A DNA stretch of 55,129 bases, from IMG/VR virus record IMGVR_UViG_3300014911_000007, positions 1 to 55,129 of that record; one strand, given 5' to 3'. This document shows, one piece after another, positions 365 through 53,967 of this stretch. How positions within the stretch are numbered: position 1 is the first letter of the stretch; the number at the start of each line of letters is the position of its first letter. Origin of the DNA: a virus. The notes beneath the pieces are model-generated. The model was given only the letters and a program-made list of their open reading frames with translations. It was not told the DNA's origin and ran no database searches. A program made the translations under genes and the position numbers.

Positions 365-398
365 CAATAGGCCATCCTTGTTGGAGGGTTATTTTCGT

Positions 399-1184
399 AT
401 GCCCGACCCCATCATCGACTACTTACCTCCGTGGTTCGTCAACTCGCTTGCCGAGCGGTCTAGGAGAAAACTTCGACGCATTCCAGCTTTCGTAGGCGAT
501 ATACCGTGGTACTATCGTCTTTTTGGGCAGGATCGAAGCGGGGACCCGCGCCTTGGTGGATATTATCAGCCGTGGCCGCCTAGATATGTCTGGCTTCGTA
601 CCGTTGACGAGAATGCGACAACTCCGATGCACGAGGCTATTCATGCCATAGACCCTCATCTAGACCCGATACCATGGATAACTGAATCTCCTGACATGCC
701 GGATTGGAGGTACGATCTTATTCATTCGCCGAGATTAGATGAAATCCGCTATTACTACACCGGCGGCGGGGCATCAACGACTTATTGGACAATTGATGAG
801 TTTTTGCCGTTATCTCTTCAAACTCGGCAGTTTGCCTTATCTATGGTTCCGGCTTACGAACGCGCTGCGTGGCTGCGATCTGGGCTGTTCAATCCAATTG
901 CAGCGGTACCAAGGGAAGCCGTCGAGGCCGGGTTTCGATCCTGGCAGCATGAGGGACGAAAGCTAGGCATGGAACCTGTGGCCGAACCGTTCCCGAATGT
1001 CTATCCGCCATCGCCCCCACAATTTACTGCTAAGAGGGCAGTTGATAAGCCACAGAGGATCGCTGATTTATTGAAAGAGCAGCTATTTGAGACCTACGAT
1101 GCTAAGCGACGGCGGCAAATTCGCCAATTGTGGGGTAAAGGATGGACGGCCCCTCCGCCCGCTATCGGGATGGAGCATTACTAA
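399..1184 (+). CDS. HExxH protein (putative zinc metallopeptidase) before terminase
   Basis: 261 residues. An in-frame ATG at 351 lies inside the promoter, so I use ATG 399, which has GGAGGG at 383-388. The motif HEAIH (His78, Glu79, His82) with following Ala and Asp matches the zincin HExxH signature; a third metal ligand could not be assigned. The protein is rich in Trp, Tyr and Pro. It sits directly before the large terminase, where a small terminase is often found, but the sequence does not resemble one. Its stop overlaps the terminase ATG (TAATG), so translation is likely coupled. Peptidase activity is inferred from one motif only. Confidence 0.6.
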   Translation: MPDPIIDYLPPWFVNSLAERSRRKLRRIPAFVGDIPWYYRLFGQDRSGDPRLGGYYQPWPPRYVWLRTVDENATTPMHEAIHAIDPHLDPIPWITESPDMPDWRYDLIHSPRLDEIRYYYTGGGASTTYWTIDEFLPLSLQTRQFALSMVPAYERAAWLRSGLFNPIAAVPREAVEAGFRSWQHEGRKLGMEPVAEPFPNVYPPSPPQFTAKRAVDKPQRIADLLKEQLFETYDAKRRRQIRQLWGKGWTAPPPAIGMEHY

Positions 1185-2731: not shown

Positions 2732-2732
2732 G

Positions 2733-4610
2733 ATGGCGCAGAATATTATTGAACCACAGAAAGTCACTGGCGATCTTCAGTTAGCCGAATTGTTGGCAGA
2801 ATATGCCCGCGCTAAGCGAGAGACCGAGGACTTCCATAAGAATATTATTCGCTGGCGGAATTGGTATAACTTCGAACATTACAAGCGGGACCCACTTCCA
2901 GGCGAGGAGCGGTATACCGATCCAACCCCAACGAATGTGGTGGACACGGCAGTTGGAATTATGTTAAGTCGTGGGGTTCGTTGGGTGGCGTCTGGATTTG
3001 AGCCGTATGCCACTGAGACCGAAGTCGCCAGTAAGATTGAGAAGTACATCGCTGGTACGGTAGAGGCGAACAATATCCGCGAAGAGATGGATGTTCTGGC
3101 GATGGTGGCGACATACTTTATTAGAGACGGCATGGGTGTTATCTACTCTCCGTTTGATCCCATCTTAGCTGATGACTTAGCCACGCAGGTCATGGTTCCG
3201 GCTCCCGGCGGGGACGATGTGATGATTATTGAGGGCTTTATGGAGACGCCGCTTCGGGTTCAGGCTATTGACCCGCTGAACATCGCTCTTCTGCCGGGCG
3301 GCCCTCAGCGGTGGGGGTCGATCTTCAGGACAGAGCGCATGACCGTTTATGATGTGGAGAACCTATATGGCGTTCAACTCAACAACTGGAAGCACCTGAC
3401 CGATCAGCAAAAGATGACCCAGTACGGCCAATTGATTGATATTTGGCGATGGGTTCGCAAGCCGAAGATGGAAGCCGGACAGCTTCCTTTGGATGGCTTT
3501 GAAGGGGAAATGCCGGTTTCCCTGCGGGAAGAGTGGGTGGTCCAACACGCCGTTATCTTTGAGAAGGAGTGGATTTACGAACTAGAGGATACGGATTATC
3601 CAGACATTCCTTATACCATTGGCTTCTTCAAGCCTGTAGACCCGGCAAAGACGAAGAATTGGTCTCATAGTATTATAAGTCCGCTGGAGGATTCGACCGC
3701 CTTCGTCGAGAAGTCCATCAACCGGCGGCAGCGGCAGATTACCATGCTTACCGGTCTGCCTCTTATCGCCCGCTTGATGCAGGGTCGAACCATTGCAGTC
3801 GACGCTTCTATAGCGAACGTGGTAACTATCCACCCAGACGAGAACCTGGAGTTCCCACGCTGGCCTGGAAATCCGCCAGACGTTGAGCAGCAGCTACAGT
3901 TCTTCCAGCGTCGTCAATCGCAGGCAGGCTTCTCCGAGCCTGATTTGACGGGCGGGGCGGCTTCTGGTTACGCGCTATCGCAGGTTGCAGATGCTAACAA
4001 GATCAAGTTGCAGCAGCCTATCCGTCAGTTCGAGTTCCTGCTGACTAACTGGGCGCGTAAGCTGCTGCGCCTGACGGCTAGAATGGCGGCGGGTAAAGCC
4101 ATCCATGTCTATGGTAGTCTGCGTGGGCAGAGCTTTACTGACCAGATTATCGCTCAGGACTTCGCCACTTATCTCGTCCGGGCAAAATTGGAGCCGGAGT
4201 ATCCGGGTGAAGAGGTCCGCAAGAGCGCCCTGGCGACACAGGCTACAGGTAAGATGTCGCTCGAAACTATTATGCAGCGCTACTACAATATCCAGCAGCC
4301 GGATGACGAGATAAAGCGCATGATTAGGGAGCAGGCTAAGATGCACCCATTGGTTATCGAATACGGCATCCGAAAGTACCTCATGGAGCTTGCGGATGAA
4401 GGCGACGAGGCAGCCATTATGACGTTGATGGCTATGGAGCAACAGGCTGGCCGTGGCGGGGGCGGAGCGGCTCCTGGTCCTCAGCCGTTGGGAGGCGTGA
4501 TGTCCGCTACTGGCGAGCCGACGCCACAGGAACGCGGGCGGCGGCCTCCTGGACAGAATGAGGAAGAGGTCGTTGGAAGCCTAGCAAACTTGGCCCCAGG
4601 ATTGGAGTAA
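2733..4610 (+). CDS. Portal protein
   Basis: 625 residues, starting one base after the terminase stop, with SD AAGGAG before the ATG. It would form the dodecameric ring at the capsid vertex through which DNA passes. Support is its position, its length and a portal-like middle (segments such as GLPLIARL and a long helical stretch near residues 420-460 rich in Gln, Leu and Arg). The C-terminal 60 residues are low-complexity Gly, Pro and Gln. I identified it mainly from context and overall character rather than a diagnostic motif. Confidence 0.85.
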   Translation: MAQNIIEPQKVTGDLQLAELLAEYARAKRETEDFHKNIIRWRNWYNFEHYKRDPLPGEERYTDPTPTNVVDTAVGIMLSRGVRWVASGFEPYATETEVASKIEKYIAGTVEANNIREEMDVLAMVATYFIRDGMGVIYSPFDPILADDLATQVMVPAPGGDDVMIIEGFMETPLRVQAIDPLNIALLPGGPQRWGSIFRTERMTVYDVENLYGVQLNNWKHLTDQQKMTQYGQLIDIWRWVRKPKMEAGQLPLDGFEGEMPVSLREEWVVQHAVIFEKEWIYELEDTDYPDIPYTIGFFKPVDPAKTKNWSHSIISPLEDSTAFVEKSINRRQRQITMLTGLPLIARLMQGRTIAVDASIANVVTIHPDENLEFPRWPGNPPDVEQQLQFFQRRQSQAGFSEPDLTGGAASGYALSQVADANKIKLQQPIRQFEFLLTNWARKLLRLTARMAAGKAIHVYGSLRGQSFTDQIIAQDFATYLVRAKLEPEYPGEEVRKSALATQATGKMSLETIMQRYYNIQQPDDEIKRMIREQAKMHPLVIEYGIRKYLMELADEGDEAAIMTLMAMEQQAGRGGGGAAPGPQPLGGVMSATGEPTPQERGRRPPGQNEEEVVGSLANLAPGLE

Positions 4611-4618
4611 GGCTTACT
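4606..4618. repeat. Palindrome AGTAA-GGC-TTACT, copy 1
   Basis: Perfect 5-base arms. It covers the portal stop codon and abuts the next ATG at 4619, so its AAGG may also act as an SD site. One of nine perfect copies in the window. Confidence 0.75.
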
Positions 4619-4828
4619 ATGAAAGACATTTTCGACGAAGTAGTTAAAGAAGTTAGCAAGGGAATTATCGAGGGGGTTGAGGTGTTTGGTGCAGATCGGG
4701 ACCCCGATCTCCGCGTCTACAATCGCTTGGATCAGGACGCGTTTGACAAGCTGGCGAAGCGTTATGGATTTGAGAATGTAGCCGAATACATTCGACAGAT
4801 GGAATTAAAGCGCTTAGGAGTGAAGTAA
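4619..4828 (+). CDS. Small hypothetical protein of the head operon
   Basis: 69 residues, ATG immediately after a palindrome copy. An acidic N-terminal helix is followed by a short basic C-terminus. No family was recognised. It lies between the portal and a Gly/Pro-rich protein and ends one base before the next ATG, so it belongs to the same transcript. Confidence 0.75.
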   Translation: MKDIFDEVVKEVSKGIIEGVEVFGADRDPDLRVYNRLDQDAFDKLAKRYGFENVAEYIRQMELKRLGVK

Positions 4829-4829
4829 C

Positions 4830-5993
4830 ATGGCATTAATTGGACCCTCTAAAATCAGCGGCAGGACTGTCAGAGCATCACGACGTGGGCCGAGATATTC
4901 GTATATGTCTATCAATCCGGGCCTATATCGTCAGCGTCCTAAGCCTCGCATACGAACTGCTGGTCAAAAGAGAACTCTTTCGCCGCGGTTTACGGGGCGC
5001 GGAATTACGACATTCCGGGTGAGACCGCCTACACCGCCATTGACGCCCCCGGACTATTCTAAGCAAGTTCAATATCCCGGCCTCACGCCCGAGGAGAGCT
5101 TCGAGGTCGAGGATATGATGCGTCGCTACAACATACGAACAACGTTCGGCGGTGCGCCGCCGGGATATGTTGAGAATCCTTTCGAAAAGGGCGGTGGGTT
5201 CACTATTACACCGGCAGGGGGTGGGGGTGGCGGCGGGATTCTACCTCCGCCTCCGAGTGAGGAATATGGCTACCAGCCCATAGATGTCGAATGGGTGATC
5301 GGTAATTACGCTGTATCGGACAAAGCTCCATCCTGGTGGAGACCATTCGATATCAAGGATAAGAGCCAGTACAATCGCCCCGATGTGGCATTTACCCTAA
5401 TGGCGAATGCGCTTATCGGCAGCGGCGCGCTAAGCGATGAGGATGCTCGTGCCTTGGCAAAGCAGCTTTATGCGATGTGGGGCCGAGCCGGAGAGAATCC
5501 TTGGGATATCTATTCCGATAAGTTTGCTGACGAGAATCGACCGCCGGGTCGTCGTATTGGAGCACAGGGCCAACCGGCTATTTCCCGCCAATTGGCACTG
5601 ATAGGGCAAACGGCTCCTGGTGGTGTGATTGATGAACGAAGCATCTATTCCCGCGAACGGGCCAACCGAATCCTACAGGCATTGAGTCGTATGCGGGAGG
5701 CTACGGTCGGCGGGAACGTTTGGAAGTTTGGCCCCGGTTACCAGTACCTACAAAATATAGCCGGGGCGCTGGGGACGGCTGGCCCAGTGGCACGGACACG
5801 GGCACAAAGGCTGGAGGTACTCGGAGCGTTAGACCCGCTTCTGGCTCAGGCTAAGAGCGGTGAATTGTCAGCGTTTGCTCCACTGGCCCAAATGATTGCG
5901 CAGCCGTTCTACACCTACGCGCCGCCGAGGGTTTCCCGAACCCAGGAGGGTCGCTACCAGTTTGGACGCCGGTCCAAGTATCTAACATTCTAG
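4830..5993 (+). CDS. Hypothetical head-module protein with disordered N-terminus
   Basis: 387 residues. The first 75 residues are rich in Arg, Pro and Gly and probably disordered and basic. A Gly run near residue 130 (about 8 Gly in 10) is followed by Pro-Pro-Pro and then a folded part (about 150-387) with predicted helices rich in Ala, Leu and Arg. No family was recognised. Its position between portal and the giant gene suggests a virion or assembly role. A basic disordered tail could contact DNA; that is inference. Confidence 0.75.
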   Translation: MALIGPSKISGRTVRASRRGPRYSYMSINPGLYRQRPKPRIRTAGQKRTLSPRFTGRGITTFRVRPPTPPLTPPDYSKQVQYPGLTPEESFEVEDMMRRYNIRTTFGGAPPGYVENPFEKGGGFTITPAGGGGGGGILPPPPSEEYGYQPIDVEWVIGNYAVSDKAPSWWRPFDIKDKSQYNRPDVAFTLMANALIGSGALSDEDARALAKQLYAMWGRAGENPWDIYSDKFADENRPPGRRIGAQGQPAISRQLALIGQTAPGGVIDERSIYSRERANRILQALSRMREATVGGNVWKFGPGYQYLQNIAGALGTAGPVARTRAQRLEVLGALDPLLAQAKSGELSAFAPLAQMIAQPFYTYAPPRVSRTQEGRYQFGRRSKYLTF

Positions 5994-6002
5994 GAGGGCA
6001 TA

Positions 6003-6296
6003 ATGAGATACGAATATAAGGTTGAGCGTTTTGATGCTCGCCAACTGAACTATGCGGAGGATAAGCTAAATGTCCTTGGAGATATAGGCTTCAAAGTTGT
6101 TGGTATTCAGCCGACGAATACCTACCATGACTTCATTGTCATTTTGATGAAGGAAGTCGAAGGAGAAGCCAAGAGCAGGGCGAAGGCGAAGGTCATTAAG
6201 CCGATTCGCAAGAAGAACCAAATCAAAACCCCTTCGAAGCCTATGACCAAGGAAGAGCGAGAGGCGCTAGAAAAGCTCCAGGACGAAAAGGAGTAG
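6003..6296 (+). CDS. DUF4177-like small protein
   Basis: 97 residues, with SD GGAGGG just upstream. The first 50 residues follow the DUF4177 pattern: a YEYKV beta strand, a helix with ALN-like residues, LGxxGF and a final IVILMK strand. The C-terminal half is Lys-rich and helical with coiled-coil character. DUF4177 has no settled function. The TAG stop is one base before the giant gene's ATG. Confidence 0.7.
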   Translation: MRYEYKVERFDARQLNYAEDKLNVLGDIGFKVVGIQPTNTYHDFIVILMKEVEGEAKSRAKAKVIKPIRKKNQIKTPSKPMTKEEREALEKLQDEKE

Positions 6297-6297
6297 T

Positions 6298-9200
6298 ATG
6301 GCAAAACGTCGATACGAAGGCGTGAATCCTGAACTGCGGGTGGAGGACGTGCTTAAGACTATCAAGCGCGTCCCGCCACCGGCGGTTGCCCCATCTACAG
6401 AACCGGCAACAGCCCCGTCTACTGCGCCGTTTTGGAAGACGGATGAGTTTCGCGGGGTCGTGCGGAATATGCAGCCTACATCTCCTTCGCCCAATGTTCC
6501 ACACGCCTTTCTGTACTATGACCCAGATAGCCGACAGCTAACGAATGATAAGACGGATTACCGGGTCTACTATAATCCTTGGGATCGAAGCCTGACGTTG
6601 GAACAGACTAAGATTCCAGCAGTCAATGCTACGCTTCAGGTTATCGACCCGCAATTCGATATCTCTCGGCTGGATGAGCAAATCGAGCCTCGAACGACTG
6701 TCACGCCGCTAGAGGTTGAACAGGTCTTTCCCGAAGCGAGAATGCTTGGGGAGCCAATCCCTGGCTTGCCCGGTACCTACCGTATGTCTGAGGAGGCTGA
6801 GCGGGCCATCCGAGCGGCTTACGGTATTGATGAGCAGGCCGTTAGGCGTAAGGCTATCGCCTCGGTAGAGCTTGAAGACGTTCGCGAGGAGCTTGCGAAC
6901 ATTGACAATCAAATCCTATCGGCGTCGTATCCTTCGCCCACTAAAGGGGCTGGTCCGGTCGTAGACCTATCCGATCTTAGCCGACGCCGGGCCGAGTTGA
7001 AGGAGCGTGAGCGAAGGCTGCTCCAGATCATCGAAGAGACGGAAGAAAGCGAACAGCTTGCCGACGAGGCTATCGATCAATTTTCTGAGATTACCGGATT
7101 GAAGCCACGAGAGGTAATGTACGTTCCGGGTCCTGACGGTACGCCGATTGCCGTCAGCGGTCATGACGATTCAGCTATTCAGCGATGGTGGGACGCTACG
7201 TTCGTTCGCCCCCTCAGGAAGTTCACTGAGGAGGCGGCACAAAACCCCGTCTGGCGAGTACTGGGCACGGGCTTTAGGCTTCTGCGTCGTCTTCCGGGTC
7301 ATATTTGGGGCTACATTAATAATCCGCTTCAAGCGATTCCGGCTGGCTGGCAGGCGGCGAGCGCAACGGAATGGTGGAAGACGCGCAACCCGCCGGAGGA
7401 ACTCCGGGTCCGGTATCCTCTCTACTGGCAACAGGAGATGCGGGCCAGGATTGACGAAGAGGCTCTACAAGAGCAGCGGGATGAGGTCAACTTCTTTGCT
7501 GCCCTATCTGCGTTCGGGGCGGGGTGGGCAGAGGCGTTCAAGACGCGCAACTACGAAGAGACCCTATCGTTCTTCGAAGATACGTGGCTTGGCTTCCAGC
7601 GCGCCGCCGAGGACTTGCGCGAGGGACGGTTCCCGGACACCCTTGAGAAGCCGCGATTTGTCACTCCCGAGTTAGCACACATTCTCTCTCCCGACGCAAC
7701 GCCGGAAGAGGTTCGGGCGTGGATTGAGACCGTCGATGACGACGAGCTTTTCGACTTGCTGGGCGTGAGCAATCCGCACGAGTGGCGAACTAAGTTCTAT
7801 ACGAACACCGTTCGCTGGTATGAAGCGGATAAGGGTATCGCTAACGAATTGGCGCGGGTAGCGGCAGCCCAGGAGAAATATCGAACTGATTTCGAGACTG
7901 ATGAGATATGGCTATATGCGGTAGCTAAGGAAGCCGTTGAAAGGGTCAAGCAATATTACAGGGAGAAGTGGGATATCTCTCGTAGTGACTGGCGATACTA
8001 TGACTTCACGGTCACGTATACCGAGTCGTGGGGACCCGAGGACCCTGAAGTCCTCAGGGACCAAATTACGACGGCGCTGGCTTACGCCACGCTTCAAAAG
8101 GGCGATCTCCTGTCTCCACGCGAGATTGAGCTAATTGCTAGTCGCTTTACAGACCCCGGAACCGAATTCTGGGGAGAGCTTCTATTTGACCTATCAAACC
8201 TCATCCCCGGCGCTGTAATGGATAAGGCCATTCTAACCCCGCTCAAATCGCTGTTCAGATTTGCTGGGAAGGGGGTTGGTAAGTTTGTCGAGACGGTAGC
8301 TCCCGATTTTGCAGCGTGGGCAATCAGGACATTCAAAACCTCATCCATAATCTCCCACAGCTATAAGCTCCGCGCTAAGGCGACTGAGACGCTGGGCAAC
8401 ATCGCCTCTGTGGTACGGTCGCCCGGCGATATGAGAGAAGTACTTACTAAGCTGGTTCGAGGGCAATTGACGCCAGACGAAATGGCGGCCTATCGCCTAA
8501 CGGCTCGTCAAGTCCGGCATATCATGGACCCAACTAACGGCGTGGTTATCGAGGCGGCTTTAGATGATCCTGAGGACTTGGTTTCGCTACTTGACCAAGC
8601 CGTCAGCAGAGTCTACGACCAAGTATATAGGCGGCATTTGGGGGATGGCAAGTCTGTAGAGGAGGCGACCAGGCTCGCGGAGGAGTACATCTCCAACGCC
8701 AAGAATATTGTACCGGAGCTAACTCTCCAACTTCAAACGGCATATCTCCGGGCCAGAGAGGTTCTGCCCGGCACCCGCCTTATGCCGGATACGCTTGTAG
8801 GACGGTTGGCCGAGGCGTTGAAGATAGGCTCACCCCCAGCTAAGATTGAAGTCCTTGGGTCTTACAAACTCCCGAAGAGGGTGATAGAGAACGCCATACG
8901 CGGGTTTGTGCAGGGGGTTGGCTTCGCTCGAAATGCGTGGGCCTCGATGGTATTGACCGCACGCCCTGGCTTCACGATCATCAATTATTTTGACACGGCC
9001 TTCCGCGCCGCCGTTCATGGTGCTAACATGCTGGACGAGCTTCGTTACCTGCGAGAGCTTGTCCCCTATTGGCCGGAGGAAATCCCCGGCGGCTTCATGC
9101 GCGCCCTTACCGAGGACCTAGGCGAGGATATCGCCCACCTCATTCTAAGTGGCGAGATCGAGGCGAACTTCTGGACGGTATTCCGCCGAGTGGCTGGTGA

Positions 9201-12200
9201 CCGGTGGTGGCTACACCCGCTGAAGGGGCTTCGAGGCGTCAACACCGCTTTCGAAACCGTCTTCCGCATGCGGACTTATGTCCCCTTATTCGTGAAAGAC
9301 TGGAACGTTGTCCAGCGGCTTATCCATGAGGCACTGCTCGCTGAGAAAATCCTTGATGACCCTATAGTCAAGGCTATCTTTGAATCCCTATCGGCGGTCG
9401 ACACGGCGGATACTGCCACTATTAACGAAATCCTCCGTACACTAGTAAGGCAGGACCTTGTTGATGCTTCGTACACTCGGTCGTTGTTCTTCCGCACCGG
9501 TTGGTATGATGAGGTATACAAGCGGCTTGGAAGCCATGCTGAGACTAAGGTCTACTTGCGGCGGGTTGCCTCGTCATTAATGGAAGAGGTCCAGAAGGGC
9601 GGCTTGACGCCCGAGGGCGTTCAGCGAGCCTTCCAATCTGTACTGGACGAAATTGATGCCCTCGAACGAGAGGCGGTTGCTGTTGCAGATGCTACTCGCG
9701 GGGTAGACGAGGGCCTCAATACGAAGCCGGATATGGACGACATGCTTGGCGGGGCGGATGAGGTCCGCGAGATTGATCCAGAAGTAGCTGGGGTTCAGAG
9801 GAGCGCCAAGCTAAAGGACGGCTACCTCATGTACCCCGAGGCGGATGGTATCCGTGATGATCAGCACTTGTTGAATGCTATTAATAAGTACAGCGAAGGC
9901 GAGTATAAGAGCTTGGATGAAGTTCCCGTCCGCGTCGCCGAGGACGCCTTGAGTGTCCGTCGTGAGCGGAAGGGTATCACTTATGTCCCGCCTACAAAGG
10001 CCCAGCGGGAGGCGGTTGAGGCGCTAGAGCGGGAAGTTGCGGAACGCGAGGCCAAGCTAGTAGAGGAACGCCTGAAGGCGGTAACGGCCCCTGAGCCGCC
10101 GGAGTCGGCGGTAAGGGCGGCCCCAACTCCTGAAATTCCGTCGTCTCGGGTGGTTAGTGAGGTTCCGGTCGGCTACCACTCCGACCCAACGAAACTCATA
10201 GACCCCGATATGGTGGACCCAGGCTATGAGTATGAGGGGTTATACCACGTAACGACCGCCCGCGATAAGGTTTATGACGAAGGCTTGAAGCCGCGCGCTG
10301 AAACCGGTCGATTGGGATTGGGACCGGGCGGCAGCATAACCGATGATGGCACGCGAGTAAGCCTTACTTACAACTATGCCCACGCCGAAGAGCTTGCTAA
10401 TGGTCTACATCTAGCGGCTAGAGTAGCACAGGGTAAGGCGACCGTTAAGGAGGTAGTCGATTGGACCCTTGATCGCCTTGAAATAGGAGGCGCTTTAATG
10501 GAGCCTCCGACCAATGTTCAGCATGTTTTGAACGAAGCCCTTCCCATCCCGCGTGATGATGCTGGGAGTTGGGATTGGGAGATTTTGGACGATGTTATTT
10601 ATGAACTGGACGACATCCTCAACGACAAAGAAAAGTATGAACTACTTCAGGACCTTGATGATGTAATTTCAGTTCTGATCTCGGATATTTCCTCCATCAG
10701 TGGCCTAGAGGCCCCATATCTCCCTGTCGGCCTAACGGCTCCGTATGAGGCGATGGCCGAGCTAGACCCCAATCAAATCGAAATCCTATCTATCGCTGTC
10801 CGAGATGGTGCAGAGGTTGAGCATATCCCAATAGAGTTTGAGTTCCGCGTGAAGCCGGAGGATTTGGTCGTTATTAGACGGCCAGAAGAAGAGTTTGTTT
10901 CCCCTGTCTCAATCGAGTACAAGGCGATGAAAGAGGCCGGAGCGGATACTCTGCCACCGTTCGTCGGCGGGCCGCTCTCTCACGCCAATTATCAGTGGGA
11001 GATCACCGCTGGCGAGAATATGGGCCGGACAGGGAAGCTCTTGGATCGCCGCATCACGCCTGATGGTAAGGTTCAATACTTAGTTGACATAAGTGAATCC
11101 GCTGATATCGTCCCGTTCCTTGATGAGGATATGGAAGGCTTGCGGGTTTGGGTGGACGCTGCCAATATCCGCGGTAAGCTGCCGGAAGATATCCGTGCCG
11201 CCACCTCCCGCATGGGTCACATCATCAATGCCGTAGTGGAGGAGGGGGAGCAGGTTGACGACTTCGACGAAATCCTCCGTCGCTATCTAAGGCTGTCCGC
11301 CGAGGAGCGTCGCCAGCTTGACCCACGACTAGCGAAAGAATTCGAAGGCGTAGCTGATGAAGTCGTCCAGGAGATGAACTACTACACCTATTGGCGGCGG
11401 AAGTTCTTGACTGGCTATGACGCATCTGACTTTGACGAATCGTTCATTCTGAAGCAGAAAGCCGGGTCGAATTATCCTGATTGGTACCGACGCCTAACCG
11501 AGAAACGGTGGAAGGACCTGCGCCGTGCCCAGGCGCACGCCATGGCGGAGAAGGCGTTCCAGATTCTCGGAGCGGGTGAGCAGCCGAAGTACGCCTATCT
11601 TGTGCAGATTAGAAGTCGAACTGGTGAAGAGGCATGGGAGGTTATCACTAGCGACGCGGCAGTCAAAGATATGGACGAACTTGGCGCGCTCGTCAAGTCG
11701 CTTAAGGGAGAAGATGTAGAGGTCGCCGATGTCGTTAGAAGCCGACGGGCCAAGACTAGGGGCGGTATCTACATCGAGAAGCCACGCAATATGTCACGTG
11801 CCCTCAACAAACTAGCGTATGAGGATGGCGTGGAGGTCGTCCTTGATCGTGCGCTAAGCGAACATGTCGTCATTGATACGGCTATGGAAGGCGCAGGCGA
11901 TGTCGGTTATCCTGTCCCGCCTCGGCCTTACGTTTCCTATTTGGTCGGGAGTGACATGGAAGACGTTCGGGAATATGCTACTCGGTTCTTCACTGAGGAA
12001 GAAGCCGAAAGATTCCTTAAGGACCTGCTTCCAAAGGCCGAGGAGCCTCCGAGCCAAGCCGCTGTGCAGTTTGCAGAGGATGTTGAAGAGGCGGTCGAGG
12101 AGGGCCAGGACGTGCCGCCGGTGCCGGAGCCGACCGACGAAGAGATTGGCCCCGTTGAGCATCAAGAGCCGGTGCCAGAGTCTAAACTGGAAGAATACGA

Positions 12201-15200
12201 AGCAGTCTTTATTGAGAAGACTGAAGACCTACCGAATGAAGTTCAAATCCACTTACGGGATGAATTGGAGCGGGCTAAGGCTCGCTACAAGGAGGCAGGC
12301 GAGGCCGAAGCTAAGGCGCGTGCGCGGGTCAACGAGTTTGCTACCCGCCTAACGGAGGCTATGGCCCGCGTTGCAGATGAGGCGACGGCCAAGACTTTGC
12401 GCGAGGCACTCGCTTACATCCTTCAGTTTGATCGTGATTATACGTGGATGGTCACAAACACCCGCTTCCACGAATGGTTGATTGAAGACTATCTGTTCGC
12501 TGGGAAGCGAAGATACGCAGCGGCCAGCCTACACAACTACATCTATTGGTACGAAATCAAGCGGGAATTCTACGAGGCGATGGGGAAACGCTTCGACGAA
12601 ATCTCCGATCTTATCCGTGCGGGTAACTATGACGAATTGGCTCGCCGGTTTAGAGATGTCGAGTTCCCATCCGTAGTGGACATCTTTGAGGACATCGGCT
12701 TCGAGTTCCAGTTTGATAACGCAGGGAACTTGGTGGGTATGCGCTGGAACAAAGACCTACGCTTCCAGCTTACCGATACCTATTATACCCATTCCAATGG
12801 CCTGTACAGGTTCCAGCAAGCAGTCCGGCGGGTAGGCGAGGAAGAACTAACAGCGCCCTACACTCGTATATTGGATGCTAAGCCCGCATCAGGAATGCCG
12901 GAGGAAGTGGCTAAGGCCATGCCGGTCCCAGAGAGCGAAATAGCGCGGGCGGAAGGTGTAGAGGCCGAAGAGCTTTTGAAGCCGACGGAGCCGCCTGAGG
13001 AGGTCGATGAGATTTGGGAGACCATCCGAGCCAAGCCAGGATATGGTGGGGCCTATAACGAAGCGTCGGCACGCGAGTTAGCGGAAATGGACGAGCCGCT
13101 GCGCGGCCCATCACTGAACTTCATCTATGGCCGAGTAACGGACGACGATGGCGCACCAGTGCTTAGGTCATTTGCGGACTTCGAGCGGTTTATGAAGGCA
13201 TCCATAAGTAAGGCTTACGAGGCTGGCGACACCGCTAAGGCTCAGATTTTAGAATGGCGACTACAAACTGTCCGCCAGGAGTACAATGCGCTTCGAGAGG
13301 CGGCGGGGCTTGCCTCCAGTTCGTACAAGCTGCCGGAGCTTGAAACCCTGCCACGAGACTTCCAGCGGCTAATCTTGGAAGGCACCCAGGCTGTAGACCG
13401 AGCGCAGGTTCTTCGAGAGCTTACTAAAGACTGGATGGATGACCTTATCCGCCGGATTGAGGACGGCGAACCCGCCTTGGTCGCCAACTTGACCGCAGAG
13501 CAGCGAGAGACGCTTGAGCGGCTGCGCCAGCGGTGGACAAAGCTCATTAGTGAGGGTCTTGAGACCGTAAACTATGGCGGAGAATTCCTAGGTGTGAAGT
13601 TCCCCGGAGCGGTTCATGAGACGAATCGCTTCCTGCTGAACTACAACGAGTTCACGCCTTTCGACCAGTGGATGAAGAACTGGGTCCCATTCTGGATGTT
13701 CCCGTCGCGCACGATCCCAATGTGGCTAGAGACGATGGTTCTGCACCCAGAGCTTGCCGCCTTTTATCTGAAATATCTCGGTCTCAGTCGCCGCCAAGCG
13801 TGGCGGGCCGGGCTGACGACCAGAAACGGCGATCAACTACCGTCCGCTAGGGGCTATATCCGCATCCCCGGCACTGAATACTGGGTGAACCTGTTCGGGC
13901 CAATTTCGATGCGGTACGCAATCCCAGCGTATATGCCGTACTCATGGGAGTACGAGGAAGATAAGGATTTGACCATCTTCCAGAAAACAACCCGCTACGC
14001 TTGGGACATACTCAATATGTTCGGCATGTCCCCGAACCCGCTTATCCCGTGGATTTTGCAGCAGGCCGGATGGCTGGATGCCAATGAGGACCCACTCTGG
14101 CCGCTTATTCCACAGCCAGGGCTAGTGCCTCCTAACTTCCAGCGGGTGATTATGAGCCAACTGCGGAAGATCGTCACGACCGCCCCGGATAAGTGGGACC
14201 CAGACGTTGGCTGGAAAGACTTCCTAATCGACAGGGAGATCGTGAACATCGGCCTCCAGCGGGCACTGGCTACTCAGGACCCAGAGGAGCAGATGCGCAT
14301 CTACCTGCAAACAGTAGCGGCGCTGAAGAACCGCAATCGCCGTCTCGTGACTGGCGACCGGGCTGGGGAGTACGTCTCCGCAGAGGGGGCAGAACTATAC
14401 CTGGAGGCCCGAGATGCCGTCGAGTCTCGCGAATATAACCGGCGGGTGTTCGGTTACTTCACAGGTATCTACCCGAAGCAGTTCACCGACGCGCAGGTGC
14501 TACTAATTCAGACCAGGACAGAGTTCAACGCCTTGGCTATGGCACTTAATAGCTTGGTTGGGATGAACATGCTCGAACTCGACCCAGAGGCCGAGAATCG
14601 GTGGGATTTCTGGATTCGAGAACGGTACCACTCGGTAGAGGGCTACTTCTCGACTCTCTACAACATCATCAGCTTCGTGACGGGGCCGGATGGTAAGGAG
14701 GTCTACGACGATGAGCGGTGGGAGATCATCGCCCAAGAGCTAACCCGCGAGGTCGAGACCCACGCTTATTGGGATACGTGGGAGGTTGCTACCAACATTC
14801 GGGATAAGAAGCTGCGGGCGCTCCCGGCAGGGGCGACTTCTGAAATGCGCCGAGCAATCTACGATGAGTTCTATCAAACCCTGGCGACTGTAGAGACCAG
14901 CGGCCTAATGGATGCGGCCCAGCGACCGTGGTTCATTGGATATAAGCCGCCGCGCTTAGTCTGGGAAGATATCGAGAGCTTCTTCTGGCATACGGCGCTG
15001 TCGGCCCTCGAACCTTATGATGCGACTAGAGAGACGTATCCTGAGTACCTAGAGAGACGGGAAGAGTTCCTGAACAATGAAGTGCCCGTTATTGTCAAGT
15101 CTTCGGAGGTTTTGTGGGAGCGGCTTGCTAAGATTGAATATCTCGATCCTTCAGTGAACAAGGTCGACGACATTATCAAGCGCCTGATGGATGTCGCCAG

Positions 15201-16377
15201 CGCCGAAGGCTATGAGGAATGGCGACGGTCGAGGATGACGGTCGATGATGCCATTATGGACTGGTGGGACCGCCATCGCATCCAGCCCTTCTGGGACGAA
15301 GCTGGCGATCTAGACGTGAACGCTAGGGAATTGTGGTTCCGAGAGCACCCTGCGCCAACAGAGGAGGAGATTATTGGCGGCGTCAGGGAAGAGTTCCCGC
15401 AATTCTCGGACGAGGAAATCTACGAGGCCATTCATGGCCGCCAGATTTGGGATGTAAAGGACCGACTGGAGCAAGAAACTATCGAGAAGCGGGGTGAGGA
15501 AATGGGTAAGTTGGAAGAGCGTCTATGGGATGCGATCAACTCCATCCCGCCTGGAAAGATGGATGAGGTACGGAAGGAGTTCGGTCTGCGTGGCGGAGAT
15601 GAGGACTTCCTTGACGAAGCGTTCTCGAAGCGGGTTTCGTTTGATGATCCCGACGAACTCCGTCATCAAGTGCTCATTCTTGAGCGGACTTTGGCCTACA
15701 TGGGATTTGGCCCGCTTGAAACGCTCACAGATGAAGAGCTTGAAGAGCGGTCTCAGGCGAAACAGGAGCAAAACGAATTCAAGGAATGGGTTGATAAGCA
15801 GACGTATCCTGGGTTCTATGAGGAGCGCCAGCATTACTACTCGCTTTCGCCCTCAGTACGTGATGACTATCTGAAGGCTCATCCGAAATTCGCCGCCGCT
15901 CTTGAACGCTATGACGATCTACGAGCGGAGTGGGCCAAATCTCACCCAGTATGGGCGGACTATTATCTCAACGAGGGTTCGACCCGCCGCAGCAGTGGTG
16001 GACGCCGCGGCTCCAGAACCGCCGAGCCATCTGTTGCTCCTCGGGATCAATACCTGCCGCTCGGTAAGCGGGCCACACAAGATGTCACCCAACTCCTGCG
16101 CCCCGGCGCGTTAGGCGCGGCTGGGCCTGGAGGTAAGCTGGTATGGCCTCCTCGCCTCCGCAAGGAAGCCGGACCAGAAATTGTTGAGGCGAGCCGAGAA
16201 GTGGCTAGTGGTAAGCGGTCGTTCACAAAGACGGAACTCGATTACCTCGAAAGGCTCAAGAAGCTATGGGGCGGAAAATACACCGCTTTTATCGACGAGG
16301 TTATACGGATGGGAGCTAAAGAGGGTGAAAGTATCGTCGATGTTATCAAACGTCGACGCCTATTGACCGGTCATTAG
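6298..16377 (+). CDS. Giant 3359-residue virion or polyvalent protein, candidate ejected protein
   Basis: One uninterrupted frame of 10,080 bases, with SD AAGGAG at 6288-6293. It takes about 18 percent of the window. Visible parts: a Pro-rich start (residues 20-45); long Glu/Arg helical stretches (180-260); Trp/Tyr-rich helical blocks; a hydrophobic RPGFTIINYF-type segment (near 885-905) like those in phage large polyvalent proteins; Pro/Glu linkers (near 1230-1290 and 1930-1960); an ADP-ribosyltransferase-like block starting at LYHVT (His1317) with a Tyr-containing strand about 50 residues later; and a second WVPFWMFPSRTIP segment (2462-2474). The position between portal and scaffold and the short-tail module suggest a protein packaged in the capsid and ejected into the host, comparable in size to the N4 virion RNA polymerase, but no polymerase motifs were seen. 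Confidence 0.8.
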   Translation: MAKRRYEGVNPELRVEDVLKTIKRVPPPAVAPSTEPATAPSTAPFWKTDEFRGVVRNMQPTSPSPNVPHAFLYYDPDSRQLTNDKTDYRVYYNPWDRSLTLEQTKIPAVNATLQVIDPQFDISRLDEQIEPRTTVTPLEVEQVFPEARMLGEPIPGLPGTYRMSEEAERAIRAAYGIDEQAVRRKAIASVELEDVREELANIDNQILSASYPSPTKGAGPVVDLSDLSRRRAELKERERRLLQIIEETEESEQLADEAIDQFSEITGLKPREVMYVPGPDGTPIAVSGHDDSAIQRWWDATFVRPLRKFTEEAAQNPVWRVLGTGFRLLRRLPGHIWGYINNPLQAIPAGWQAASATEWWKTRNPPEELRVRYPLYWQQEMRARIDEEALQEQRDEVNFFAALSAFGAGWAEAFKTRNYEETLSFFEDTWLGFQRAAEDLREGRFPDTLEKPRFVTPELAHILSPDATPEEVRAWIETVDDDELFDLLGVSNPHEWRTKFYTNTVRWYEADKGIANELARVAAAQEKYRTDFETDEIWLYAVAKEAVERVKQYYREKWDISRSDWRYYDFTVTYTESWGPEDPEVLRDQITTALAYATLQKGDLLSPREIELIASRFTDPGTEFWGELLFDLSNLIPGAVMDKAILTPLKSLFRFAGKGVGKFVETVAPDFAAWAIRTFKTSSIISHSYKLRAKATETLGNIASVVRSPGDMREVLTKLVRGQLTPDEMAAYRLTARQVRHIMDPTNGVVIEAALDDPEDLVSLLDQAVSRVYDQVYRRHLGDGKSVEEATRLAEEYISNAKNIVPELTLQLQTAYLRAREVLPGTRLMPDTLVGRLAEALKIGSPPAKIEVLGSYKLPKRVIENAIRGFVQGVGFARNAWASMVLTARPGFTIINYFDTAFRAAVHGANMLDELRYLRELVPYWPEEIPGGFMRALTEDLGEDIAHLILSGEIEANFWTVFRRVAGDRWWLHPLKGLRGVNTAFETVFRMRTYVPLFVKDWNVVQRLIHEALLAEKILDDPIVKAIFESLSAVDTADTATINEILRTLVRQDLVDASYTRSLFFRTGWYDEVYKRLGSHAETKVYLRRVASSLMEEVQKGGLTPEGVQRAFQSVLDEIDALEREAVAVADATRGVDEGLNTKPDMDDMLGGADEVREIDPEVAGVQRSAKLKDGYLMYPEADGIRDDQHLLNAINKYSEGEYKSLDEVPVRVAEDALSVRRERKGITYVPPTKAQREAVEALEREVAEREAKLVEERLKAVTAPEPPESAVRAAPTPEIPSSRVVSEVPVGYHSDPTKLIDPDMVDPGYEYEGLYHVTTARDKVYDEGLKPRAETGRLGLGPGGSITDDGTRVSLTYNYAHAEELANGLHLAARVAQGKATVKEVVDWTLDRLEIGGALMEPPTNVQHVLNEALPIPRDDAGSWDWEILDDVIYELDDILNDKEKYELLQDLDDVISVLISDISSISGLEAPYLPVGLTAPYEAMAELDPNQIEILSIAVRDGAEVEHIPIEFEFRVKPEDLVVIRRPEEEFVSPVSIEYKAMKEAGADTLPPFVGGPLSHANYQWEITAGENMGRTGKLLDRRITPDGKVQYLVDISESADIVPFLDEDMEGLRVWVDAANIRGKLPEDIRAATSRMGHIINAVVEEGEQVDDFDEILRRYLRLSAEERRQLDPRLAKEFEGVADEVVQEMNYYTYWRRKFLTGYDASDFDESFILKQKAGSNYPDWYRRLTEKRWKDLRRAQAHAMAEKAFQILGAGEQPKYAYLVQIRSRTGEEAWEVITSDAAVKDMDELGALVKSLKGEDVEVADVVRSRRAKTRGGIYIEKPRNMSRALNKLAYEDGVEVVLDRALSEHVVIDTAMEGAGDVGYPVPPRPYVSYLVGSDMEDVREYATRFFTEEEAERFLKDLLPKAEEPPSQAAVQFAEDVEEAVEEGQDVPPVPEPTDEEIGPVEHQEPVPESKLEEYEAVFIEKTEDLPNEVQIHLRDELERAKARYKEAGEAEAKARARVNEFATRLTEAMARVADEATAKTLREALAYILQFDRDYTWMVTNTRFHEWLIEDYLFAGKRRYAAASLHNYIYWYEIKREFYEAMGKRFDEISDLIRAGNYDELARRFRDVEFPSVVDIFEDIGFEFQFDNAGNLVGMRWNKDLRFQLTDTYYTHSNGLYRFQQAVRRVGEEELTAPYTRILDAKPASGMPEEVAKAMPVPESEIARAEGVEAEELLKPTEPPEEVDEIWETIRAKPGYGGAYNEASARELAEMDEPLRGPSLNFIYGRVTDDDGAPVLRSFADFERFMKASISKAYEAGDTAKAQILEWRLQTVRQEYNALREAAGLASSSYKLPELETLPRDFQRLILEGTQAVDRAQVLRELTKDWMDDLIRRIEDGEPALVANLTAEQRETLERLRQRWTKLISEGLETVNYGGEFLGVKFPGAVHETNRFLLNYNEFTPFDQWMKNWVPFWMFPSRTIPMWLETMVLHPELAAFYLKYLGLSRRQAWRAGLTTRNGDQLPSARGYIRIPGTEYWVNLFGPISMRYAIPAYMPYSWEYEEDKDLTIFQKTTRYAWDILNMFGMSPNPLIPWILQQAGWLDANEDPLWPLIPQPGLVPPNFQRVIMSQLRKIVTTAPDKWDPDVGWKDFLIDREIVNIGLQRALATQDPEEQMRIYLQTVAALKNRNRRLVTGDRAGEYVSAEGAELYLEARDAVESREYNRRVFGYFTGIYPKQFTDAQVLLIQTRTEFNALAMALNSLVGMNMLELDPEAENRWDFWIRERYHSVEGYFSTLYNIISFVTGPDGKEVYDDERWEIIAQELTREVETHAYWDTWEVATNIRDKKLRALPAGATSEMRRAIYDEFYQTLATVETSGLMDAAQRPWFIGYKPPRLVWEDIESFFWHTALSALEPYDATRETYPEYLERREEFLNNEVPVIVKSSEVLWERLAKIEYLDPSVNKVDDIIKRLMDVASAEGYEEWRRSRMTVDDAIMDWWDRHRIQPFWDEAGDLDVNARELWFREHPAPTEEEIIGGVREEFPQFSDEEIYEAIHGRQIWDVKDRLEQETIEKRGEEMGKLEERLWDAINSIPPGKMDEVRKEFGLRGGDEDFLDEAFSKRVSFDDPDELRHQVLILERTLAYMGFGPLETLTDEELEERSQAKQEQNEFKEWVDKQTYPGFYEERQHYYSLSPSVRDDYLKAHPKFAAALERYDDLRAEWAKSHPVWADYYLNEGSTRRSSGGRRGSRTAEPSVAPRDQYLPLGKRATQDVTQLLRPGALGAAGPGGKLVWPPRLRKEAGPEIVEASREVASGKRSFTKTELDYLERLKKLWGGKYTAFIDEVIRMGAKEGESIVDVIKRRRLLTGH
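10356..10368. repeat. Palindrome AGTAA-GCC-TTACT, copy 2
   Basis: A perfect copy inside the giant gene, close to the ADP-ribosyltransferase-like block. A near match (AGTAAGGCTTACG) lies at 13207-13219 in the same gene. Confidence 0.6.
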
Positions 16378-16380: not shown

Positions 16381-16414
16381 TTGACATAATATAGAATTTA
16401 TGGTATTATGTCAA
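16381..16414 (+). promoter_or_regulatory. Palindromic capsid-operon promoter
   Basis: TTGACA at 16381-16386, a 17-base spacer and TATTAT at 16404-16409 preceded by TGG. The outer bases form a perfect inverted repeat: TTGACATAAT (16381-16390) and ATTATGTCAA (16405-16414). The minus strand therefore also reads TTGACA, 17 bases, TATTAT, although only the plus strand has the TGG extension. It lies between the giant gene's stop and the scaffold SD site and should give separate, high expression of scaffold and capsid. Confidence 0.8.
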
Positions 16415-18889: not shown

Positions 18890-18917
18890 GCCGCATAGCC
18901 TAACATAAAATCAGTCT

Positions 18918-18955
18918 CGGTGTGACCGGCGAAGCCCTCCTAGCCGGTCACACCG
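18918..18955 (+). other. Perfect 13-bp hairpin between capsid and next gene
   Basis: CGGTGTGACCGGC, a 12-base loop, GCCGGTCACACCG. No T run follows, so a classical intrinsic terminator is unlikely. It may stabilise the capsid message or set read-through. The loop holds CCCTCC, complementary to the SD GGGGAGG just downstream that serves the gene at 18972. Confidence 0.7.
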
Positions 18956-18971
18956 GGGAGGGAGTGAAACG

Positions 18972-30700: not shown

Positions 30701-30905
30701 AGCCATACTTGAAACCAACGTCGAATATCACGAAAACCGGATTTCTCGCATCGAGGAATCCATCATAACCCTGAACCACGAGATGGGCGAAGTGCAACGG
30801 TCCCTCGGTAAGATCGAGGGGCGCGTTGGTATGCTCGTTTGGTTGATGGGCGCAACCGGCTTAGTTATTCTGGCCGAGTTTATTCGCTCTCTTCTGGTTC
30901 GATAA
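30678..30905 (+). CDS. XhlA-like holin
   Basis: 75 residues, overlapping the lysozyme end by 23 bases. A charged coiled coil (about residues 8-48) is followed by one hydrophobic segment (about 50-70, MLVWLMGATGLVILAEFI) and a short basic tail. This layout matches XhlA/haemolysin-type holins, which sit in the cytoplasmic membrane and let the endolysin reach the wall. The last 26 bases overlap the convergent gene on the minus strand. Confidence 0.75.
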   Translation: MTSEEVNRAILETNVEYHENRISRIEESIITLNHEMGEVQRSLGKIEGRVGMLVWLMGATGLVILAEFIRSLLVR

Positions 30906-33946: not shown

Positions 33947-33983
33947 GCCCGCGGATGTGGCCCTCCCATTCACATCCGCGGGC
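33947..33983 (-). other. Perfect 13-bp hairpin before the recombinase gene
   Basis: GCCCGCGGATGTG, an 11-base loop and CACATCCGCGGGC, in the 68-base gap upstream of recombinase. No T run. On the minus-strand transcript the loop contains GGGAGGG. It may be a processing or stability element, or a partial terminator setting recombinase levels. Confidence 0.7.
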
Positions 33984-34260: not shown

Positions 34261-35133
34261 TTAGCCTCCTCTCAGTTTCTTCCGAACGGCTTCCTCGCTC
34301 GGATACAGGCGCTTTCGACCATCTCCGCGAGCCTCCTCGAAGTCTCTAATATACTTTACCAGCCGCCGGAAGCCGTGCGGCTCCACGCTCGCGGCTTGGT
34401 CGGTTCCCCACATGGCCCGGTCCAGGGTGATATGTCGCTCCACAACTTGTGCTCCTAACGCCACGGCACAAACAGTCGTGACAAGACCTGTCTCGTGGCC
34501 GCTATAGCCAATCACCAAGTCGGGGTAATTGCGCTTGTAGAAATCCCGAATTGCGTATAGGTTTAGCTCCTTCAGCGGACACGGATAGGTGCTTGTACAG
34601 TGCATCACCACCAACCTTTCCGGGTCAATCATAGATAGATAGAAATCTATAGCCTCCTCCACCTCCTTCTCTGTAGACATCCCTGTCGAAATGATGATAG
34701 GAACACAGGGATATAGATCGGCCACTGCACGCGCTAAATCGCGGTCCGTCAATTTAGCCGACGGAATCTTAATCCACGGCGGTTTATATTGTACCATAAA
34801 TTCTGCTGAAGGTCTATCCCAAACCGACGCTGACCAATCCATGCCAAGGGCCTTGCAAGTAAGGCTTACAACGTTATAGGCCCCCTGCCCAAGCTCGATG
34901 CGCTCTTTATACTCGATATAGGGCATAATACCCCACGGCGTTTCCTTGGGCCGATCCCATTCGTCGCGGGGAACTGCGATACGTGGAACCCGCTTCTGAA
35001 ACTTGACAGCATCCGCACCGGCTTCGTGCGCGGCCTTAATTAGCTCCAAGGCAACATCAATGCTTCCGCAGTGGTTGATACCAATCTCCGCGATGATGTA
35101 AGTTTGATTCTTCTCCAACCTAGTCTGTAGCAC
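34261..35133 (-). CDS. NeuB-type nonulosonic (sialic) acid synthase lacking the SAF domain
   Basis: 290 residues. NeuB enzymes condense phosphoenolpyruvate with N-acetylmannosamine or a related six-carbon sugar to give sialic, legionaminic or pseudaminic acid. Diagnostic blocks: IIAEIGINHCGS (13-24), AGADAVKFQ (38-46), IKIPSAKLTD, IIISTGMS, VVMHCTSTYP, IGYSGHETG, VERHITLDR and the Asp/Glu-rich GTDQAASVEP. The TIM barrel ends at the usual linker (SEEAVRKKLRGG), but the C-terminal SAF (antifreeze-like) domain, which completes the active site of the neighbouring subunit in bacterial NeuB, is missing. Usual length is near 340-350. A near copy of the window's palindrome lies at 34858-34870. Confidence 0.92.
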   Translation of the reverse strand: MLQTRLEKNQTYIIAEIGINHCGSIDVALELIKAAHEAGADAVKFQKRVPRIAVPRDEWDRPKETPWGIMPYIEYKERIELGQGAYNVVSLTCKALGMDWSASVWDRPSAEFMVQYKPPWIKIPSAKLTDRDLARAVADLYPCVPIIISTGMSTEKEVEEAIDFYLSMIDPERLVVMHCTSTYPCPLKELNLYAIRDFYKRNYPDLVIGYSGHETGLVTTVCAVALGAQVVERHITLDRAMWGTDQAASVEPHGFRRLVKYIRDFEEARGDGRKRLYPSEEAVRKKLRGG

Positions 35134-44921: not shown

Positions 44922-44956
44922 AAGACCTCCCTTCGTGCAGAGGAGATTCCGATGCT

Positions 44957-44985
44957 ATTATACCCAAGGCAAATTGGCCTGTCAA
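44957..44985 (-). promoter_or_regulatory. Consensus leftward promoter of the replication block
   Basis: Read on the minus strand: TTGACA (44985-44980), a 17-base spacer and TATAAT (44962-44957). Both boxes are perfect. Transcription would start near 44950, about 29 bases before the helicase GTG. Confidence 0.88.
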
Positions 44986-45007
44986 GCGGAATCTCCAGGC
45001 AGTTGAT

Positions 45008-45023
45008 TGTGAATTTCTTCACA
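45008..45023. promoter_or_regulatory. CRP-like box 1
   Basis: TGTGA-ATTTCT-TCACA: a perfect match to the CRP/GlxR-type half-sites with a six-base centre. It lies about 23 bases upstream of the leftward -35 box. Confidence 0.6.
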
Positions 45024-45034
45024 GCCCGTATTGT

Positions 45035-45086
45035 TTAAGGATTTAAGTATTTAATTAATTAACCCTTAAGATTCATTAAATAGATA
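45035..45086. other. AT-rich core of the control region, possible replication origin
   Basis: TTAAGG (45035-45040) and CCTTAA (45064-45069) flank a run made almost only of A and T (TTTAATTAATTAA). It lies between the divergent gene blocks, next to inverted repeats. This is the pattern of a DNA-unwinding element, but no iterons or DnaA boxes were established. Confidence 0.35.
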
Positions 45087-45091
45087 CAGGT

Positions 45092-45107
45092 TGTGACTAA
45101 TTTCACA
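45092..45107. promoter_or_regulatory. CRP-like box 2
   Basis: TGTGA-CTAATT-TCACA, extended by T and A to TTGTGA...TCACAA. It is 84 bases from box 1, about eight helical turns, so both face the same side of the DNA. Confidence 0.6.
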
Positions 45108-45117
45108 AACTCCTAAG

Positions 45118-45130
45118 AGTAAGGCTTACT
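45118..45130. repeat. Palindrome AGTAA-GGC-TTACT, copy 5
   Basis: A perfect copy whose last base is the first base of the -35 box of the rightward promoter at 45130. This position is the best evidence that the repeat is an operator. Confidence 0.75.
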
Positions 45131-45158
45131 TGCCTTGCCTGCTAATCCGTGCTATAAT
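45130..45158 (+). promoter_or_regulatory. Rightward promoter of the HNH gene
   Basis: TTGCCT (45130-45135), a 17-base spacer and a perfect TATAAT (45153-45158) preceded by TGC (extended -10). The start would be near 45165, two bases before the ATG at 45167, giving a nearly leaderless message. Confidence 0.68.
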
Positions 45159-45166
45159 TCGATTTG

Positions 45167-45379
45167 ATGGTAACGAACTCGGCCTACTACCCACTTGGCA
45201 TGTGTCAACGATGCAGGTGTAAGCCTGCTGTAGTTCGTCATCATATTGTCCCTCGTGGAATGGGCGGCTCCGATGATCCGGACAACCTCATCCCGCTCTG
45301 CCTTGAGTGTCATGAATGGGTACACGCCCACGGCCCTCAAAGGCTTGTAGATTACCTTCGTTCCCTCCTTGACAGCTAG
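45167..45379 (+). CDS. HNH endonuclease, small
   Basis: 70 residues from ATG 45167 (a TTG precedes it in frame). Motifs: two Cys near residues 12-15, then HHIVPRGMGG (the HH and metal-binding loop), DNLIPLCLECHEWVH (Asn, CxxC, His). This is a full HNH core with a zinc site. It may cut DNA for packaging, recombination or homing. It is the only plus-strand gene in the right half and has its own promoter; a structured RNA region follows it. Confidence 0.85.
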   Translation: MVTNSAYYPLGMCQRCRCKPAVVRHHIVPRGMGGSDDPDNLIPLCLECHEWVHAHGPQRLVDYLRSLLDS

Positions 45380-45397
45380 ACACCAGTATAGTAAACT
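45369..45397 (+). promoter_or_regulatory. Possible promoter of the structured RNA
   Basis: TTGACA (45369-45374), a 17-base spacer and TAAACT (45392-45397). The -35 is perfect and the -10 matches at four of six. It overlaps the HNH stop codon. Transcription would start near 45404. Confidence 0.45.
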
Positions 45398-45403
45398 CTG
45401 AGT

Positions 45404-45605
45404 GCGTCTATCCGCGGGCACCCCGTGCTTCCTAGCTCGTCTCGCCAGCGGGCTTCACTGCGATAGAAAGCGGGTCGCTCCCGCTTTCGAGGGTGGCACC
45501 CGGTGCAGTGACGAGATAGAACGAGGTCAGGAGGGGTGTCCCCTGGTGGACCGAGGCGTCAGCGTGCAAGTTATTTAGTTTGGCCCGCGCGCCTCGGTCC
45601 ATCTT
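45404..45605 (+). ncRNA. Candidate structured non-coding RNA
   Basis: No convincing reading frame occupies this stretch, but pairing is extensive: hairpin GAAAGCGGG/CCCGCTTTC (45466-45488, 5-base loop); a small hairpin GGGT/ACCC (45491-45501); both enclosed by TCACTGC (45455-45461) with GCAGTGA (45505-45511), continued by CTCG with CGAG; a hairpin AGGGG/CCCCT near 45532-45544; and a long terminal stem TGGACCGAGGCG (45547-45558) with CGCCTCGGTCCA (45590-45601). The strand is inferred from the promoter at 45369 and the neighbouring HNH gene; pairing alone is symmetrical. The last stem lacks a clear T run. I recognise no known RNA family. Confidence 0.55.
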
Positions 45606-45611
45606 GGTTTA

Positions 45612-45899
45612 CTAGTCTACGACGGTGAAGCCTGCGTTGTTTAGTGCCTTCTCGTGGTCCATCCCGCCCCGAAATGAGCCTTCCAGTTCGAGCCAATCAA
45701 GGACGTTTCCATCCTTGTCGCACGGGAAGATATAGGTTTCGGGCAGGCCGGTGTCGGGGGCGAACGAAATAGCGGACACGGCGACAAACTTTGTCTCGCC
45801 CTTCTCCGTCCATCCGTACTCAACTGGCTCTGACAACTCGTAGAGTTTGGCGCGGCCCCTCCATCCTTCCAGCTTCTTAATAAAGCGTGCAGTCTTCAT
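45612..45899 (-). CDS. Hypothetical protein, last gene of the right-arm block
   Basis: 95 residues, AAGGAGG before ATG 45899. A mixed beta protein with several Trp and Gly residues; no motif recognised. It ends just before the structured RNA region, facing it. Confidence 0.75.
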   Translation of the reverse strand: MKTARFIKKLEGWRGRAKLYELSEPVEYGWTEKGETKFVAVSAISFAPDTGLPETYIFPCDKDGNVLDWLELEGSFRGGMDHEKALNNAGFTVVD

Positions 45900-53887: not shown

Positions 53888-53899
53888 GAATGTGCCTCC

Positions 53900-53914
53900 A
53901 AGTAAGGCTTACTT
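53900..53914. repeat. Palindrome AAGTAA-GGC-TTACTT, copy 9
   Basis: A perfect 6-base-arm copy that directly abuts the SD site (53895-53899) of the gene at 53669-53887. Confidence 0.78.
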
Positions 53915-53918
53915 TAGG

Positions 53919-53957
53919 GGCCGGGCCGCGCGGCCTATGGGTCCGCGCTGCCCGGCC
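53919..53957. terminator. GC-rich hairpin between right-arm genes
   Basis: GGCCGGGC and GCGCGG pair with CCGCGC and GCCCGGCC, with one mismatch and a 9-base loop. On the plus strand TTTATT follows; on the minus strand the flank is CCTAAAG. It lies between the stop of the gene at 53968 and palindrome copy 9. A terminator or processing site. Confidence 0.5.
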
Positions 53958-53967
53958 TTTATTCCGC

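Follow-up and report, generated by a model that had tools for sequence, protein, structure and literature searches.

The gap at positions 45404-45605 of the window, by which we mean the whole stretch of 55,129 nucleotides analysed here (a single IMG/VR virus record from an uncultured phage), lacks a plausible gene and folds with an excess stability that is real and beyond chance. It sits between the stop codon of a plus-strand HNH ORF and the stop codon of a minus-strand DUF7572-like gene and is, as far as sequence comparison tells, an orphan, with no relative in any collection searched. We tentatively read the gap as a folded element that forms the end of a transcript and the boundary separating the convergent HNH unit from the minus-strand operon, an explanation to which we give somewhat less than an even chance.

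The upstream gene is a small HNH endonuclease ORF of 71 aa (45164-45379, plus strand; PF01844, E = 2e-10), and the plus-strand HNH unit converges on a minus-strand operon ending at 45612. The last gene of this operon (45612-45899, minus strand, 95 aa) was recognised as DUF7572-like by protein matches, with relatives in actinophages. Two ORFs run across the gap itself (45402-45578 and 45432-45602); neither found a match in the family search and both have low codon scores, and a protein-coding reading was dropped on these grounds. Together with the fold statistics, these low coding scores bear out the description of a strongly structured non-coding region given in the first-pass annotation.

Folded as plus-strand RNA, 45404-45605 reaches -105.2 kcal/mol, whereas its shuffles average -81.5 (z = -5.41), and none of 200 dinucleotide shuffles was as stable; a separate run gave z = -5.19, with none of 400. 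The first-pass annotation had called the nested pairing unlike that of the other short gaps, which holds for the amount of pairing and fails for its statistical kind. The control gap upstream of the HNH gene (44922-45151) gave z = -5.6 on the plus strand, the best among 15 gaps, followed by 53888-53967 and 18890-18971, and perfect 13-bp GC-rich stems without U-tracts occur in the hairpins at 18918-18955, in a short gap, and 33947-33983, at the start of a RecA/UvsX-like gene. The 15 gaps compared, all of at least 60 nt, came from an automatic gene choice that treated 45404-45605 as coding and thus left it out. When 200-nt tiles were scanned blind to register, with 30 shuffles for every tile, 45401-45600 came 8th-9th of 550, a low position due in part to the register, which cuts the terminal stem of P3, and to the use of only 30 shuffles. 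The other convergent junction of the window (30701-30879) shows no fold of this strength (z -2.1 and -0.1); such folds are therefore not a general mark of convergent junctions in this phage.

The fold consists mainly of two arms. The first, P2 (45416-45541), is a long imperfect arm of 126 nt with a z of -3.8 when folded alone, capped by a 9-bp hairpin, GAAAGCGGG/CCCGCTTTC, at 45466-45474/45480-45488 (5-nt loop, pair probability 0.97). Four plus-strand helices enclose this hairpin between 45416 and 45541: TCACT/GGTGG (45455-45459/45492-45496), CGGG/CCCG (45449-45452/45499-45502), CTCGTC/GACGAG (45436-45441/45510-45515) and GGGCACCCC/GGGGTGTCC (45416-45424/45533-45541). The second arm, P3 (45545-45603), is a GC-rich, terminator-like hairpin with an AT-rich loop of 15-19 nt, followed by TTGGTTTACT, a weak U-tract. 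Its terminal stem (45547-45558/45590-45601) comprises 12 perfect bp, or 15 bp counting G-U, with a GCG/CGC extension within the loop; alone it folds at -34.5 kcal/mol (z -6.2), and P3 recurs in all the folds computed, including those of longer transcripts from the HNH promoter. The 9-bp hairpin, a helix enclosing it and a terminal stem of 11 to 12 bp had all been proposed at first reading and were recovered; of the two small hairpins proposed with them, one was found, the 3-bp GCG-TCTATC-CGC at 45404-45415, where transcription from the 45369 promoter would be expected to begin, while the second is absent from the minimum-energy fold. Folding of 45375-45630 adds a possible 9-bp closing helix, P1, whose left arm TAGTAAACT (45389-45397) and right arm GGTTTACTA (45606-45614, overlapping the convergent gene's stop codon) reach past 45404-45605 and could enclose the small hairpin, P2 and P3 as a single domain. 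P1 is absent from the best fold of longer transcripts beginning at the HNH promoter, and it is not relied on here, because a helix as long as this arises by chance in ~4-5% of cases in flanks of matching size.

Strand and molecule are not separable by the strength of the fold, since the minus strand of the gap folds nearly as strongly (z -4.7 to -5.0) and single-stranded DNA of 45375-45630 reaches z -5.9 with DNA parameters. The count of G-U pairs, 7 in the plus-strand fold versus 3 in the minus-strand fold, would lean weakly to plus-strand RNA. In addition, the U-tract that follows P3 on the plus strand, although interrupted, has no counterpart in the minus-strand sequence AGGGGACACC.

Several promoter-like sequences surround the gap. 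The TTGACA-17-TAAACT reported just upstream is indeed present on the plus strand (45369-45397, 10/12; TTGACA at 45369-45374, TAAACT at 45392-45397), and it counts as weak evidence because matches of this grade number 19 in the 55-kb window and because its -35 falls in the last HNH codons. A second plus-strand match, TTGCCT-17-TATAAT with a TG before the -10, lies upstream of the HNH gene at 45130-45158 and is a possible alternative origin for a transcript through the structured region. The helicase operon carries, on the minus strand at 44985-44957, the only perfect (12/12) TTGACA-17-TATAAT of the window, framed by a 10-bp inverted repeat, GGAGATTCCG/CGGAATCTCC, at 44942-44996. Elsewhere, in the gap before the gene at 16440, a palindromic TTGACATAATA-N12-TATTATGTCAA at 16381-16414 can be read as an 11/12 promoter on either strand.

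The gap upstream of the HNH gene also holds two exact TGTGA-N6-TCACA (CRP/GlxR-like) palindromes, at 45008-45023 and 45092-45107, which are the only exact ones in 55 kb, lie 84 bp apart and flank an AT-rich imperfect palindrome. Each is centred near -65 of the start expected from one of the divergent promoters, 44985-44957 (minus) and 45130-45158 (plus), and together they resemble a paired control switch. Copies of a 15-bp near-palindrome, AAGTAAG-G-CTTACTT, are scattered through the window, where 13 matches with no more than 3 mismatches compare with 0.74 expected; they lie at 4605, 10355, 13206, 17292, 33662, 34857, 39679, 45117, 50627, 50880, 51115 and 53900. The copy at 45117 abuts the -35 of the HNH promoter, that at 4605 is conserved in the fragment of a relative described below (L012:2431), and another copy is found at L011:7701. 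This repeat resembles an operator/stoperator or a parS site, and it may be, with the CRP-like pair, worth more than the structured gap itself.

Searches for homologues were carried out at the level of RNA families, DNA and proteins. Rfam returned no match at the gathering threshold in the whole window, and with E up to 10 the sole sub-threshold match in 45100-45750 was to a microRNA model (E 0.6), in agreement with the first impression that no known class could be recognised; ARAGORN found no tRNA or tmRNA. Blastn searches of phage and plasmid sequences with the region gave chance pieces only. Six proteins were used to query the IMG/VR viral contigs, namely HNH, the DUF7572 protein, the SNF2 helicase (as a single sequence and as an alignment), terminase, portal and DnaB, and one true relative emerged, the 20.7-kb fragment IMGVR_UViG_3300021468_000008 (terminase 82-83% and portal 88% identical). 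This fragment aligns to positions 1-12582 of the window only and then extends the other way, leaving the gap locus outside, and neither it nor the other fetched loci hold a DNA match to the region beyond chance pieces. Within the structural region, a 3359-aa ORF (6298-16377) is 82% conserved in the fragment over the part covered. Another gene of the window, at 34261-35133, is N-acetylneuraminate (sialic acid) synthase-like, with ~50% identity to plasmid-borne NeuB-family proteins. A scan of GTDB genome contigs with the terminase gave one match, at 33%, and the phylum of this match supplied 99 genomes, which may not include the host. A covariance model, R1, matched the window alone among 627 kb of loci, 16 records and these 99 genomes, a result that says little for a model built from one sequence; it also gave a mirror match on the window's own minus strand. 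A 17-mer scan of IMG/VR produced two matches, both attributed to chance because they lie inside coding genes reading DEIERG.

The suggestion that the gap is the remnant of a mobile element linked with the HNH gene found no support in these comparisons. Annotated relatives of the HNH protein, in the Gordonia phages Catfish and Banquo and the Halobacterium phage ChaoS9, belong to tightly packed operons in which the next gene follows within 15-16 nt at most or overlaps slightly, so that the element is no HNH-linked cassette; relatives of the DUF7572 protein in Microbacterium phages, Brevibacterium phages and EBPR siphovirus 1 are likewise packed, and therefore neither neighbour carries the element elsewhere. 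Neither direct nor inverted repeats of a convincing kind were seen on the two sides of the module (there is a single mismatched 10-mer), the inverted repeat TAGTAAAC/GTTTACTA was dropped as a terminal repeat with a chance level of ~4-5%, and no terminal repeats with target-site duplication and no second copy of the structured region were found in the window or the collections searched. The HNH ORF scores -0.11 bits per codon versus 0.05-0.31 for what are likely the small minus-strand genes scored beside it. Such atypical codon usage is suggestive of a late arrival of the HNH gene, and only suggestive because the ORF is short.

In the boundary reading that we tentatively favour, the plus-strand HNH unit would be transcribed from the 45130 promoter, and possibly also from that at 45369. 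P3 and its weak U-tract would then probably form the 3' end of the plus-strand RNA, where they would slow or end transcription and protect this end, while P2 may make the structure more stable and hinder antisense transcription coming from the opposing operon; the RNA of that operon could itself adopt the mirror fold. The position of the gap exactly between convergent genes counts for this reading, as does P3, with its z of -6.2 and its perfect 12-bp stem leading into TTGGTTTACT on the plus strand only. That both strands fold well fits the two-way requirement of a boundary, and since transcription would start anew at 44985, just beyond the HNH unit, from the 12/12 promoter on the minus strand, insulating the operon upstream makes sense. 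The G-U lean towards plus-strand RNA and the gap ORFs without family matches may also be counted in favour. Against a plain terminator speak the poor U-tract, the missing U-tract on the minus side, the absence of P3 from the strict terminator scan, the size of P2 (126 nt), larger than a terminator requires, and the lack of a similar fold at the junction 30701-30879. Should the gap be a boundary element, it would add a case, orphan in sequence, of phages insulating converging transcription units around a small HNH gene.

It is possible, though unlikely, that the gap instead yields a dedicated small non-coding RNA of ~200 nt, one that begins near 45404 from TTGACA-17-TAAACT, ends after P3 and acts in trans or by binding a protein. 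The expected start of this promoter coincides with the first paired base, 45404, the 202-nt segment folds alone (z about -5.3) with mostly high pair probabilities, P2 exceeds the needs of a terminator and P3 exposes its AT-rich loop. These points are countered by the lack of a homologue in the collections searched, by the frequency of the promoter grade and the place of its -35 within coding sequence, and by the nearly as good folding of the minus strand and of DNA. With up to 3 mismatches allowed, moreover, the loop sequence of P3 recurs on neither strand of the window, and thus has no obvious phage target. More ambitiously, the gap could be the first member of a new kind of structured phage RNA, two-armed or possibly a three-way junction, with its own promoter and a role in infection; we think this decidedly improbable, and by present sequence comparisons such an RNA would so far be confined to one uncultured phage lineage. 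A discrete RNA would constitute a new phage ncRNA, for the testing of which at least one homologous genome is needed.

Excess folding on both strands and under DNA parameters is also what a DNA-level element would show, that is, an imperfect palindrome acting as a cruciform or single strand, for example in recombination, in replication initiation or as the end of a mobile element; the atypical codon usage of the HNH gene and the strongly palindromic control gap on its other side point the same way. We nevertheless consider it unlikely, as an unsystematic look at the nearby ORFs revealed no integrase or transposase, the flanking direct repeats are limited to the mismatched 10-mer, the closing repeat is near chance level, no second copy exists in the window or the searched collections, and the GC skew turns near 25-31 kb and 53 kb, away from the gap. 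Quite improbable is that the fold serves only as the 3' untranslated region of the minus-strand operon, the plus strand being untranscribed past the HNH gene: the minus-strand z of -4.7 to -5.5 and a fold starting ~10 nt past the stop codon of the 45612-45899 gene would suit it, but G-U pairs are fewer on this strand, its side lacks a U-tract and the plus-strand energy is lower in absolute terms. A guide RNA associated with the HNH gene, of the HEARO/IscB (omega RNA) type, which would likewise be a structured RNA adjoining an HNH ORF, is extremely improbable. HEARO RNAs are located in the 5' UTR (PMC9755519), whereas the structured region lies 3' of its gene. The RF02033 (HEARO) model has no match in Rfam, and the ORF, far smaller at 71 aa, matches HNH families only, with no RuvC domain found; this reading was excluded on these three features of family match, position and ORF.

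Among known systems, 6S RNA is ~200 nt long and forms a long imperfect hairpin. The gap element has a similar length and also a long imperfect hairpin, but a 6S-like architecture was set aside, as the fold of the gap lacks the large central bubble and the region has no Rfam match. Control by RNA structure has been described for the free-standing homing endonucleases of T4-like phages (mobE, segB, I-Tev), in which 5' hairpins hide the ribosome-binding site or weak terminators lie inside the gene (PMC2988022). The present locus shares with them a small, intergenic HNH-family gene with strong RNA structure adjoining it, but here the structure lies downstream of the gene and is neither 5' nor internal. 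Intrinsic (Rho-independent) terminators differ from P3 in its 15- to 19-nt loop, its interrupted U-tract and the 126-nt folded arm that precedes it, and the loop limit of 8 in the strict terminator scan excludes P3 in any case. The stable GC-rich stem of a terminator is nonetheless present in P3, and the gap shares with intrinsic terminators and 3'-end stabilising hairpins a GC-rich stem past the end of a gene, a U-containing plus-strand tail and, as with those found at convergent junctions, a position between convergent units.
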